Shown here one piece after another: positions 19,441 to 53,740 of a DNA stretch of 64,000 bases (its first letter is position 1; every line of letters starts with the position of its first letter). Location: contig ONKO01000008.1 of assembly GCA_900318445.1 (NCBI GenBank), positions 24,732 through 88,731 of the forward strand, written 5' to 3'. Position numbers and translations under genes: made by a program. Source of the DNA: an uncultured Bacteroidales bacterium (GTDB lineage: Bacteria; Bacteroidota; Bacteroidia; Bacteroidales; UBA932). Under the pieces are notes generated by a model that worked only from the letters and a program-made list of their open reading frames with translations, did not search any database and was not told the origin of the DNA.

Positions 19441-19461
19441 CCTGCTGGATATCAATACATT

Positions 19462-19503
19462 AAAAAATTCTCTTTAGGCAGAACAGCCTAAAGAGAATTT
19501 TTT
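19462..19503. terminator. Bidirectional terminator between ppdK and phoH
   Basis: Perfect 18-bp stem (19462-19479 with 19486-19503) around the loop AGAACA. It starts with an A run and ends with a T run, so it can act on both strands for the convergent ppdK and phoH genes. Confidence 0.92.
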
Positions 19504-19541
19504 ATATGCCTGTTAATCAGGCGATTAGGTCGGGTGCGCCA

Positions 19542-22059: not shown

Positions 22060-23511
22060 ATGGATAGAGGGTTCACAGAGGCCGGTTATGAGGCACTCGT
22101 AGAGGATATTTTTCGAAGGTTTCCGTCGGTACAGAAAGACGGCTTCAGCGCCGGTGCCTACAAGCCCGGCCTGGAACGCATGCGGGCCTTCGAGGAGGCC
22201 CTGGGGCATCCCACACGTGCATTTCGCAGCATCCACATTGCCGGCACCAACGGCAAGGGCTCGGTGGCCAATATGCTCGCTTCGGCCCTCAGCTCCTGCG
22301 GGCTCAGGACGGGGCTCTTCACCTCCCCGCACCTGATGGATTTCCGTGAAAGAATGGTCATAGCGCCGCCGGAGGCCGATGGTACTCCGGGGGCTAAAGA
22401 AAAGGCCAATGCCCCCGGAGTACCATCGGCCTCCGGTGGCCGCGCCAGGCTTATCTCCCGGGAGTATGTCTACGAATTCCTCACGCGGTGGCTGCCGTGG
22501 ATTACAGAGAACCAGCTGTCGTTCTTTGAGATCACTACCGGATTAGCGTTCAAGTGGTTTGCAGATGAAGGGGTGGACGTTGCCGTCATCGAGACGGGCC
22601 TTGGCGGACGCCTGGACAGCACCAATATCCTGGAAAAACCGCTTCTCACCGTGGTTACTTCCATCGGCTTTGACCACATGGCGCTGCTCGGCAATACGCT
22701 GGAGCAGATTGCCGGGGAGAAGGCAGGGATTTTCAAGGCCCGCGTCCCCGCGCTGGTGGGGGAGCGCATCCCCGAGACCGCGCCCGTTTTCGAGACAAAG
22801 GCCCGCGGGCTGTGCCCGCTTTTCTTTGCCGATGAGATGAGCCCCGCCCTGTGGGACCAATCGGCCCGCATCCTTCAGGAAATGGACCTGCAGGCCCGTG
22901 TACAGGCGAAAAACCTTCGCACCGTGCTCTCGGCACTGGATATCCTTCGGCCCGCCTTCCCCTCGCTGGAGGAGGGAGCCATTGTGGACGGCATTGTCCA
23001 CACCGCCCGCAACATGGGCTTCCATGGCAGGTGGGAACGCTTGCAGCAAAGCCCCACCGTCATTGCCGACATCGGCCACAACGCCCACGCCCTGCGGCAC
23101 AACTTTGCGCAGCTCCACTCACGCATCGCTTCCGGTGAAAACGACGCCCTCATCATCGTCTACGGCATCATGGCCGATAAGGACCTCGACGCCATCCTGC
23201 CCCTCATGCCCCGGGAAGCCACCTACCTTTTCGCCACCCCCTCCACACCCCGCGCCCTCCCCGCCGCCGAAATCCTCAAGCGTTTTAAGGCCTTTCATCA
23301 GACTCATGCCGCAAGGCCTACGGAGGGATGTACCCCTTCGGGGGCATCGGCCTGTTTTATAGCCCCCGAAGGGGTACACCCTCCGCAGGCCGTAGACTCC
23401 GTAGCAGAGGCTGTAAAGCAGGCGCTGGAACTGGCAACGCCCCAATCCCTCATCTACATCGGCGGCAGCACCTTCGTCGTGGCCGATGCACTGCCGCTCT
23501 TTCTGAAGTAA
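22060..23511 (+). CDS. folC: Folylpolyglutamate/dihydrofolate synthase carrying two palindromic inserts
   Basis: A 483-aa Mur-ligase-type enzyme that adds glutamates to folates and makes dihydrofolate from dihydropteroate. P-loop AGTNGKGSVANMLASAL (61-77), TGLFTSPHLMDFRERM, ITTGLAFKWFADEGVDVAVIETGLGGRLD split over the omega-loop region, SIGFDHMALLGNT, ADIGHNAHAL, and the C-terminal IYIGGSTFVVADAL. Family length is about 420-440; the excess comes from two in-frame inserts. Residues about 102-127 separate ERMVI from SREYVYEFL, and about 419-444 lie before the final DSVAEAV helix. Both inserts are long inverted repeats at the DNA level (separate entries). The frame is intact. Confidence 0.92.
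   Translation: MDRGFTEAGYEALVEDIFRRFPSVQKDGFSAGAYKPGLERMRAFEEALGHPTRAFRSIHIAGTNGKGSVANMLASALSSCGLRTGLFTSPHLMDFRERMVIAPPEADGTPGAKEKANAPGVPSASGGRARLISREYVYEFLTRWLPWITENQLSFFEITTGLAFKWFADEGVDVAVIETGLGGRLDSTNILEKPLLTVVTSIGFDHMALLGNTLEQIAGEKAGIFKARVPALVGERIPETAPVFETKARGLCPLFFADEMSPALWDQSARILQEMDLQARVQAKNLRTVLSALDILRPAFPSLEEGAIVDGIVHTARNMGFHGRWERLQQSPTVIADIGHNAHALRHNFAQLHSRIASGENDALIIVYGIMADKDLDAILPLMPREATYLFATPSTPRALPAAEILKRFKAFHQTHAARPTEGCTPSGASACFIAPEGVHPPQAVDSVAEAVKQALELATPQSLIYIGGSTFVVADALPLFLK
22365..22440. repeat. In-frame palindromic insert A in folC
   Basis: Arms 22365-22394 and 22411-22440 (30 nt each) are complementary at 29 positions; the exception would be a G-U pair in RNA. The loop 22395-22410 is TAAAGAAAAGGCCAAT, whose reverse complement is ATTGGCCTTTTCTTTA. 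It is translated in frame (loop reads A-K-E-K-A-N) and adds about 25 residues between two conserved FolC motifs. Confidence 0.93.
23315..23391. repeat. In-frame palindromic insert B in folC
   Basis: Left arm 23315-23345 (31 nt) pairs with 23362-23391 (30 nt) with one bulged A and one mismatch. The loop 23346-23361 is ATCGGCCTGTTTTATA, matching the loop of insert A on the opposite strand and that of insert C in pbpC. The arms share blocks with insert A (GGAGG, GATG, TAC, CGGGGGC) but differ at several paired positions on both sides. Confidence 0.92.
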
Positions 23512-47300: not shown

Positions 47301-47409
47301 CGTGGCGCTTATCACACTGACAAACAGCGCATTAGAGTAACTGACGGGTATGAATAGCATACCCGTCAGTTACTCTAATCGTTTAGTATTCAACTATTTA
47401 AGCGCCACG
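47301..47409. repeat. Nested symmetric palindrome between the fimbrial operon and TA island
   Basis: Outer stem CGTGGCGCTTA (47301-47311) with TAAGCGCCACG (47399-47409). Inner perfect 22-bp stem (47331-47352 with 47358-47379) with the loop AATAG. The spacers on each side are both exactly 19 nt and are not complementary to each other. No U-run follows, so a plain terminator is unlikely. It could form a cruciform or be the site of a site-specific enzyme. Confidence 0.85.
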
Positions 47410-51957: not shown

Positions 51958-53740
51958 GAATGAGCATCTCCTTCCCCGGGCAGTCAGGCCCCGCCAGCAT
52001 GCCGGAGTCCCCGCACACCGCTACCCAGGCACCGGGAGACGGCCGATGGTGTCCGGCCCGGCCATCGGCCTTTTTTAAGGCCGGGCCGGACGCTTCGGCC
52101 GTCTCCGGTTCGGGGAACCACCGGTCGTCGGCCGGCAGGAGGTTCAGGATATCAAACAGCACGGGACCGGCGGTGTGGGCCCCCGTGAGGCCGGGAACGC
52201 CATGGCCATCGGCATTCCCCGCCCATACGCCAATGGTGTAGGCCGGCGTCATGCCCACGGCCCAGGCGTCGCGGAAGCCATAGCTGGTGCCGGTCTTCCA
52301 GGCCGCTTTGCGCACGGAGCGGATGAGCCTCCAGTCCAGTTCGTCGGGGCGGTTCACCTCCTTGAGAGCCTCCAGCGTATACCACACGGATAACCCGGAA
52401 GTCCTGGCCATATCGGCATAGGCGGCCGTAATCTCCTTCAGCCGGCCTTCGGCCCCGCCCAGGATGAGCGACAGGCCATAGTGCTCGGGCGCCTCGGTGA
52501 GGGTGGTGAGTCCCGCTTCCTTCAGGAGGGCATGGAACCTGGGCACGCCGTACTGCCTGAGAAGGAATACGGCCGGCACGTTGAGCGAGCGGGCCAGGGC
52601 TTCGTCGGCCGCTACGGCGCCGTAGTACTGCCGGTCAAAGTTCTGGGGCGCGAAACCGCCCAGGTTCACCGGAATGTCGGGAAGAAGGGTCTTGGGCAGG
52701 ATGGTGCCGTCTTCCAGCGCAGCTGCATACAGGAACGGCTTCAGGATGCTTCCCGTAGAACGGGGCGCCCTTGCAATGTCCACGGCGGCGCCTGCCCGCT
52801 CCCGCCCGGGGGAAGCGTTCCCTACATAGGCCACCACGTTCCCGGTGCGGTTGTCCATGACAATGGCGGCCATGTCGGCGATGCCTTCGCGCGCGAGCTC
52901 GTCGGAGCGCCGGTTAACCACTGCCTCCACGGCTTTCTGTAGCGGGAATTGCAGCGTACTCACCGTCCGGACGCCCCTGGGACAGCCTTCTACGTAGTGG
53001 GACGCCCACGCCGGAAGCGGCAGGGGCGCACCGGGAAGCGGCTCCTCCAGGGCGGCTTCGTAGTCGTCCGTTGTCATGTCTCCATGCTCCAAAAGGCGCC
53101 GGAGGAGGCGGTTGCGTTTTTGCAGCAGTTCCTCCCGGTTCTTGCCGGGGTGGATGGAAGAGGGTGCGTTGGGCAGGACGGCCAGCGTAGCGGCCTCGGC
53201 CCAGGAGAGTTCATTGGCCGGACGCCCGAAGTAGCGCCATGCTGCGGCTTCCAGCCCCACCACATTTCCGCCGAAAGGGGCATGTGAGGCATAGAGCGAG
53301 AGGATATGCTTCTTTGAGTAACGGAGTTCCAGGCGGGTGGCCTGCACGGCCTCTATGATTTTTTGCCAGAGGTTCCGCTCCTTCTGGCGGGACAGGCGAA
53401 TTACCTGCATGGTGAGGGTACTGCCGCCACTCACCACATGGCCGCTCCGGGTATTGTCCACGGCGGCTCTCACCAGCGCGACCGGGTCCACGCCCGGATG
53501 CCACCGGAAATGCCGGTCCTCAAACTGGATGATGGCCGCCGCAAAACGCTCCGGAACGGTGTCGCACGGCGGAAAACGCCACTGGCCGTCGTCTGCGATG
53601 CGGGCTCCGAGGAGCTCGCCCTCGGCGCTCTCGACAACGGTGGAGTAGCTCACCCCTTTGAACAGATCCCGTGGCAGGCAAAGCAGCCACCCTGTGAGGA
53701 GGGCGGCTGCCAAAAGCCATATCCACTTCTTTTTCGTCAA
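51563..53740 (-). CDS. pbpC: Penicillin-binding protein 1C with a palindromic insert
   Basis: A 725-aa bifunctional peptidoglycan synthase. Membrane anchor WIWLLAAALLTGWLLCL, GT51 glycosyltransferase (FEDRHFRWHPGVDPVALVRA, GGSTLTMQVIRLSR), transpeptidase with active Ser in STGSILKP and KTGTSYGFRDAWAVG, and a C-terminal BiPBP_C-like domain. Residues about 545-570 (ETAEASGPALKKADGRAGHH) derive from palindromic insert C. Start is TTG at 53740, 2 bp after the stop of the alpha-2-macroglobulin gene; no ATG precedes the membrane anchor. The stop overlaps the chimeric toxin gene on the other strand. Confidence 0.9.
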   Translation of the reverse strand: MTKKKWIWLLAAALLTGWLLCLPRDLFKGVSYSTVVESAEGELLGARIADDGQWRFPPCDTVPERFAAAIIQFEDRHFRWHPGVDPVALVRAAVDNTRSGHVVSGGSTLTMQVIRLSRQKERNLWQKIIEAVQATRLELRYSKKHILSLYASHAPFGGNVVGLEAAAWRYFGRPANELSWAEAATLAVLPNAPSSIHPGKNREELLQKRNRLLRRLLEHGDMTTDDYEAALEEPLPGAPLPLPAWASHYVEGCPRGVRTVSTLQFPLQKAVEAVVNRRSDELAREGIADMAAIVMDNRTGNVVAYVGNASPGRERAGAAVDIARAPRSTGSILKPFLYAAALEDGTILPKTLLPDIPVNLGGFAPQNFDRQYYGAVAADEALARSLNVPAVFLLRQYGVPRFHALLKEAGLTTLTEAPEHYGLSLILGGAEGRLKEITAAYADMARTSGLSVWYTLEALKEVNRPDELDWRLIRSVRKAAWKTGTSYGFRDAWAVGMTPAYTIGVWAGNADGHGVPGLTGAHTAGPVLFDILNLLPADDRWFPEPETAEASGPALKKADGRAGHHRPSPGAWVAVCGDSGMLAGPDCPGKEMLIPAAGLDSEPCPYHRTGEFVLPPAMEWYYRPHHPEYTGATRRRTQTAIQFIYPQAGAILSIPRQLSGEKEGIVFRAAHHSSDATLWWHLDNTYVGETRLRHELLLSPAPGQHTLTVVDGEGCTAAVRFTIAD
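52032..52108. repeat. In-frame palindromic insert C in pbpC
   Basis: Left arm 52032-52063 and right arm 52079-52108 are complementary except for a 1-nt bulge and a small internal loop near 52046-52050. The loop 52064-52078 is ATCGGCCTTTTTTAA, the closest to the family consensus. On the coding (minus) strand the loop reads A-L-K-K-A-D, parallel to A-K-E-K-A-N in folC insert A. The arms share GGAG, GGCCGATGGT and TCCGG with insert A. Confidence 0.92.

Follow-up and report, generated by a model that had tools for sequence, protein, structure and literature searches.

In one genus of Bacteroidales, some gut bacteria have dozens of short hairpins lying in frame within their housekeeping genes. These hairpins, which we call family A, are built around an 18-nt loop that is conserved in either orientation, whereas their arms are specific to each site but still pair. 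We favor, with somewhat better than even confidence, the reading that they are small mobile palindromic insertion elements resembling Rickettsia palindromic elements (RPEs), in which template switching re-matches the arms and a trans-acting factor keeps the loop. No description of this hairpin family was found in the literature that we searched, which lay mostly outside subscription papers.

The window, by which we mean the whole 64,000-nt stretch of DNA analyzed, contains folC (which, from its motifs, we take to encode folylpolyglutamate synthase) with two of these hairpins (Table 1). A first-pass annotation had placed two in-frame palindromes in this gene, and both their positions and their inclusion in the open reading frame were as it described. 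Hairpin 1 has 30-bp arms that are 97% complementary around a 16-nt spacer, and hairpin 2 has 20-bp inner arms (95%) that, with small interruptions, reach the full span given in Table 1 in the predicted fold; 98-nt stretches around the pair have predicted fold energies of -79 and -64 kcal/mol. The annotation had also called the two loops related, which is borne out by a joint core, GGGGGCATYGGCCTKTTYTWTAGCCCCC, that occurs twice in the window, once on each strand, where 0.00 occurrences are expected (100 shuffles). Its further view that the arms clearly share an ancestor is right at the apex, where the inner 8-10 bp look alike by eye, and fails for the whole arm, the outer arms being unlike. 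In a structural model of FolC (mean pLDDT 88.9, 33-sequence alignment), the only stretches of at least 3 residues with pLDDT below 50 are residues 115-121, 423-426 and 428-432, all within the inserts, which are predicted to be disordered loops.

Table 1 Features of the analyzed window (coordinates count from its first base; window = G000:C18:24732-88731)
Feature	Position	Strand	Details
folC carrying two hairpin inserts	22060..23511	+	483-aa ORF; Pfam Mur_ligase_C and Mur_ligase_M; 80 orthologous loci
Family A hairpin 1, 76 nt, folC residues ~102-127	22365..22440	-	Loop strand antisense to folC; site empty in L113
Hairpin 1 conserved 18-nt loop	22394..22411	-	CATTGGCCTTTTCTTTAG, including the closing pair
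Family A hairpin 2	23315..23391 (approx.)	+	Loop strand sense to folC; inner arms 23326-23345 and 23362-23381
Hairpin 2 conserved 18-nt loop	23345..23362	+	CATCGGCCTGTTTTATAG
Third family A hairpin of the window	52037..52104	+	G000:C18:76768-76835, E 1.1e-7

The hairpins recur throughout the genome to which the window belongs (G000, 2.3 Mb; other G numbers denote relatives and L numbers individual loci). A loop pattern allowing up to 3 mismatches gave 72 matches there vs 27 for a reversed control. From 30 returned loci, 13 were judged to be centered in long hairpins and served as a gapless seed alignment, in which 85.2% of cells were paired vs 54.8% after shuffling and changes were two-sided in 24 of 25 pairs, a result equaled in 0 of 500 shuffles. 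The two-sided arm change claimed in the first-pass annotation is therefore real, though more copies were needed to establish it. A covariance model built from these 13 copies yielded 22 matches in the same genome, 21 of them at E <=1.2e-4 (150 of 2,320 first-look candidates were scored), which confirms genome-wide recurrence of the loop-plus-arm pattern. One match is the third hairpin of the window, whose host is a minus-strand gene with transglycosylase, transpeptidase and BiPBP_C domains (L048).

Copy number differs widely between genomes. In the genomes behind the folC relatives, matches at E 0.01 numbered 42 (G061), 25 (G062), 54 (G063), 40 (G064) and 16 (G065), with 9 in G028, 2 weak ones in G023 and zero model matches in G067. 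Across wider samples, each including G000, matches occurred in 3 of 61 genomes at E 0.001 and in 12 of 200 genomes of the genus at E 1e-4 with stricter filters, and 24 genomes from outside the genus had zero family A matches. The folC relatives are chiefly Bacteroidales or Bacteroidia, many bearing the names of rumen samples, and include one Candidatus Cryptobacteroides faecihippi; the genus itself is presumably Cryptobacteroides.

To describe the hairpins we assembled 120 copies, drawn from 80 fetched stretches (part of the listed model matches) together with earlier loci; 6 of 126 automatic hairpin rows were left out as weak or off-target. Some loci are redundant, L055 being the same as L045 and each of L036, L037 and L044 duplicating another; L050, L052, L054, L239 and L240 have no row in the set, and L050 and L052 entered the comparison of G000 with G028 below. 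On the loop strand, the consensus of the 120 copies reads CGGAGG, about 10 variable bases, TTTCC-GNA-G, the loop CATCGGCCTTCTTTTTAG, C-GNA-GGAAA, variable bases and CCTCCG, with GNA assigned by eye, and the element measures about 66-80 nt. The loop is the most conserved part, the foot CGGAGG/CCTCCG is moderately conserved, and the middle of the arm is nearly free in sequence yet paired; the apex is completely paired in the consensus of G000. Mean GC of the outer arms was 0.35 in 18 intergenic copies, which are AT-rich, vs 0.62 in 97 genic ones. The family A loop is species-specific: at positions 7-9, the genic copies of G064 read TAT in 11 of 16, whereas those of G063 read CTT in 15 of 19 and TAT in 1 of 19, and at eight sites occupied in both genomes TAT is found in every G064 copy and in no G063 copy. 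Two other palindromes were noted. One, TTCTCTTTAGGC...GCCTAAAGAGAA, is dispersed over three places with different short loops (window 19461-19504, L014 and L016) and looks like a terminator or repeat; the other, ATTAGAGTAACTGACGGGT...ACCCGTCAGTTACTCTAAT (window 47331-47379, L020), has constant arms and a varying loop, the opposite of family A.

Codon scoring of the flanks placed 97 of the 120 copies in genes and 18 outside them, with 5 unclear. Among the genic copies the loop runs antisense to the gene in 68 and sense in 29, and the frames are (antisense, 0) in 64, (sense, 1) in 19 and others in 14. The two commonest frames amount to a single arm frame with the loop inverted and together account for 83 of 97 copies. 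The number of copies counted as genic and in frame (97) is partly built in, because the genic call demanded a frame open through the hairpin. By Pfam, hosts in G000 include the Mur-ligase-type protein FolC, NAD-dependent DNA ligase, a DHH/DHHA1 protein, FtsK, urocanase, ATP synthase (presumably the gamma subunit), PriA, an RsmF-type methyltransferase, the primase DnaG, UvrD/PcrA, a SpoU methylase, a penicillin-binding protein and an M16 peptidase. Relatives add IPP transferase (MiaA), MraW methylase (RsmH), prephenate dehydrogenase, TruB and DNA_processg_A (DprA), and a reading of protein sequences suggests PolA, BCCP and other hosts.

Orthologous genes with empty sites point to insertion. Site 1 of FolC is empty in many of the 80 relatives (e.g. 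L113) and holds differing palindromes in others, and the MiaA site is empty in G000, G028 and G062 but contains a family A hairpin in G061 and G063 and a hairpin of a second family, B, in G065. When RsmH of G062 is compared with that of G064, the difference is a clean gap of 72 nt. Inserts in MiaA and RsmH measure 72-78 nt, equal to the hairpin or slightly longer, and therefore both arms are foreign there; the notion that the arms are captured host flank is unsupported at these two sites. Compared with G000, prephenate dehydrogenase has an insert of 72 nt vs a hairpin of 80 nt, and at one A2M site (L204 of G064) conserved host residues lie within the outer right arm, so that in these two cases the foot may include host bases. 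A scan of the insertion sites for target-site duplications, as a MITE might leave, gave nothing convincing. The first-pass annotation had held that a mobile element would be untenable if close relatives all carried the inserts and the pattern were confined to folC, and the opposite was found on both counts, with empty sites in FolC, MiaA and RsmH and recurrence across the genome. Its mobile element thus stands as far as dispersal and empty sites go, from which we infer mobility, while a linked transposase, a target-site duplication and a hop between strains were all unseen. Where different species have hairpins at one and the same site, either inheritance or a hot spot may be the cause.

Directly after a complete copy, L267 (G063) and L204 (G064) carry tandem half hairpins of about 45 nt, each a loop with one arm, which is what replication slippage or template switching would leave. 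The linker of RsmH holds a different palindromic insert, AGGCGCTCTGCAGAGCGCC..., in three genomes (L259, L260 and L203). In-frame repeats of the form TCATTCTGAGCG...GAAGAATCT, with peptides such as HSERSEE and VILSEAKDL, occur in host genes at L080, L265, L271 and L052, one of them at FolC site 1.

The fate of the arms was followed in orthologous copies. The eight sites shared by G063 and G064 were compared over 21 pairs per site, of which 100 in all are unchanged, 53 differ on both sides and 15 on one side; 7 of these 15 come from the decayed RsmH copy of G063, in which 11 of 21 pairs remain. FolC (11 two-sided, 4 one-sided) and an LptF-like site (10 and 1) may represent separate insertions. 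At UvrD, TruB and two AtpG sites, where loop orientation is alike and stems are intact, 60 pairs are the same, 23 changed on both sides and 1 on one side, and three of these four sites are probably inherited, since their arm similarity ranks among the highest 5% of 304 cross pairs. Elsewhere one-sided changes are common. In a fixed register, two-sided vs one-sided counts between G000 and G028 are 0/3 in DnaG, 2/6 in RsmF, 10/2 in FtsK, 4/8 in PolA and 0/11 in BCCP. Among family B copies of the closer species G211 and G215, three of four pairs have 0 two-sided vs 2 one-sided changes each, with identical loops, and the fourth has different arms (10 two-sided vs 2 one-sided); two comparisons with G156 give 1 two-sided and 1 one-sided change. 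Arm homogenization is thus seen at the eight G063/G064 sites and is absent at DnaG and BCCP of G000/G028 and at three of the four G211/G215 pairs. The mixed counts suggest that a mismatch first appears on one arm only and is matched or corrected afterwards, more so in some lineages, and that re-matching would be slow or lineage-dependent. A spacer inversion was also observed, L103 and L104 having common arms around a 38-nt spacer that is reversed. The self-correcting hairpin of the first-pass annotation accordingly finds backing in the 53 two-sided vs 15 one-sided changes and in the inverted spacer of L103/L104, and loses it at other orthologous copies, whose decay is one-sided. Published work reports that template switching homogenizes arms and inverts spacers in yeast genes (available portion of PMC8604942) and aids stem maintenance (available portion of PMC8794818).

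Family B has an unrelated 38-nt loop, TCCGCGTCGCTTCGCGACCCTGTACGGGCAAATGCTCC, and was found in 23 of 200 genomes of the genus, with none of the reversed pattern among the matches listed for these 200. In 24 copies, several of which have weak stems, the loop is 0.92 identical, whereas the arms are 0.47 identical but 0.86 Watson-Crick paired. Over 40 copies, selected with up to 3 mismatches at fixed positions, the loop is invariant at 27 of 38 positions, and a 5-bp mini-stem within it has one variable pair, which is always matched, as C-G in 23 copies or as T-A in 17. In prephenate dehydrogenase, a 14-nt arm, TCAGGGGCAGAGGC, stands under a family A loop in G063 and under a family B loop in G211 and G215; the match length of 27 is reached by a fraction of 0.0003 of about 4,000 random pairs. 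In all, 42 same-site pairs of families A and B were compared, most of them without arm sharing, in a set that includes a few duplicates (L261 twice; L241 and L065 are one gene). The FolC copies of G063 and G064 have 13 nt of outer arm in common, with the loop reversed. In a separate observation, folC site 1 of another genome (L134 3292-3468) has two hairpins in one gene with the loop ATGGACCCTTATTTTC, one base different, and differing outer arms, a possible third loop family.

From the loop swap in this one gene, the reversed FolC loops and the TAT signature at the eight shared sites, one may tentatively propose that the loop itself is the mobile unit, arms being resident and loops being swapped, inverted or homogenized like cassettes through the homology of the apex (TTTCC/GGAAA) and template switching in trans, a reading that we regard as possible, though doubtful. 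In the account that we prefer, mobile palindromic insertions with re-matched arms, the element would spread by a putative trans-acting factor that recognizes the loop in a folded single strand, and such recognition would explain why the loop is under constraint whichever way it points and whichever of several frames it is read in. After insertion, template switching at replication would copy arm onto arm and sometimes invert the spacer, and this re-copying would let pairing last while the arm sequence drifts. The element would persist where the encoded peptide is a soluble linker in a tolerant loop.

What such a factor might be is bounded by our search for Y1 (HUH) transposases of the TnpA-REP/RAYT type, which mobilize REP-like elements on folded single-stranded DNA. 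That they move these hairpins is an unlikely explanation in our view, whatever the attraction of the hairpin anatomy, the dispersed copies and the four Y1_Tnp matches of G000. The first-pass annotation had suggested looking for such a gene; it is present in the genome but fails to separate hairpin genomes from others, Y1_Tnp occurring in 18 of 21 genomes tested, 8/8 with family A (G023 with weak matches only) vs 10/13 without, and the surroundings of 19 Y1 loci hold no convincing family A hairpin (best E 0.18). The association with Y1 transposases was therefore set aside as not discriminating. A REP would moreover end a 5-13 bp stem in a GTAG/CGTC tag (PMC3733652, available portion), whereas here the loop is most conserved and the foot is CGGAGG/CCTCCG. 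Folding of a single strand would also fit an excess of G-T over A-C on the loop strand of the arms, which persists where the loop is antisense to the gene (61 vs 11), but this excess is absent from family B (11 vs 16) and from 23 non-genic family A copies (7 vs 8). The overall asymmetry of genic family A (83 vs 21) was thus rejected as proof of a single-stranded intermediate, and it is not main evidence here because codon constraint and the RNA search model can bias it. For IS200/IS605-like single-strand transposition, which would bias orientation with respect to replication, the eight matches on contig C21 of G000 were counted by strand of the contig as assembled, four being on the plus and four on the minus strand.

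We give little credence to the hairpins being regulatory or stabilizing RNA structures selected in host mRNAs. The strong predicted folds of the folC pair (-79 and -64 kcal/mol) and the two-sided changes are what such structures would display, as is a pair at the start of orthologous ORFs (L184 of G063 and L196 of G064), whose arms are 26/28 identical allowing a shift of one; codon scoring calls both of these copies genic but in different frames, and they may therefore precede the start codon and have a regulatory role. Yet the hairpins occur in both gene orientations (29 sense, 68 antisense), so the loop would also need to work as its own complement, orthologues have empty sites, and in Rfam searches of 11 loci none of the matches listed reached the gathering score. 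Those below it were mostly to miRNA hairpins, and an Rfam identity was rejected. Hardly any credence goes to selection for the peptide that the hairpin encodes, a disordered linker of the type ..AKKADA.. or ..SASLRDPVRANAP.., with the palindrome as a by-product. The strong preference for one arm frame (83/97) and the predicted disorder of the FolC inserts would suit it; however, peptide selection would not preserve arm complementarity, the same loop is translated from either strand and in several frames, and AT-rich non-genic copies have intact loops. The family B loop, invariant at 27/38 positions with a mini-stem pair that is C-G in 23 and T-A in 17 of 40 copies and never mixed, argues the same way.

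Among known systems, RPEs have empty sites in relatives, as do the present hairpins, and we know of no transposase for them. Cyanobacterial small dispersed repeats are likewise very small mobile structured repeats with compensatory changes, but they measure 21-27 nt and lack long site-specific arms. Like our hairpins, RPEs are short palindromes that lie in frame in many unrelated genes and are translated, and unlike them they measure about 150 bp, encode a conserved peptide and are defined as families by the whole element (PMC10969869, in the portion available); they are also said to lose arm identity over time (PMC6649704, likewise in part). The present hairpins strongly conserve only the loop, with site-specific arms whose pairing is kept in some lineages. 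They therefore agree with RPEs as in-frame palindromes in coding genes with empty orthologues but lack whole-element similarity (family B arms 0.47 vs loop 0.92; family A mid-arm columns variable). REPs, too, are dispersed palindromes, some of them intragenic, with hosts that include UvrD, DNA polymerase I, DNA ligase and TruB (PMC3733652, as far as its available text goes); UvrD, ligase and TruB are hosts here too by Pfam, and PolA by protein reading. In REPINs, one paired stretch is variable and shows compensatory changes (PMC3116915, available text). REPs and REPINs conserve their ends, whereas our hairpins conserve the central loop, and neither a GTAG/CGTC foot tag (120 copies) nor a linked RAYT (Y1) gene (19 Y1 loci) was found. 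Coding palindromes of nematomorph mitochondria are perfect inverted repeats in coding DNA for which arm conversion by template switching has been proposed, but both of their arms encode conserved host protein (PMC6649704, available part), whereas the present hairpins are extra DNA where tested and have a dispersed conserved loop. We file the hairpins as a variant of in-frame palindromic elements, RPE-like but failing whole-element similarity and with the REP/REPIN plan inverted.

These hairpins show that palindromes inserted in frame also occur a long way from Rickettsia, among Bacteroidales of the rumen and gut, in housekeeping genes and at up to dozens per genome. A constant loop on matched, site-specific arms offers a natural assay of whether palindrome pairing is kept by selection or by template switching, and it cautions that two-sided changes by themselves are no proof of a functional RNA. 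The same anatomy bears on the question of what moves the smallest mobile DNAs, and loop exchange between resident arms, if true, would be an unrecognized mode of concerted evolution of dispersed DNA.
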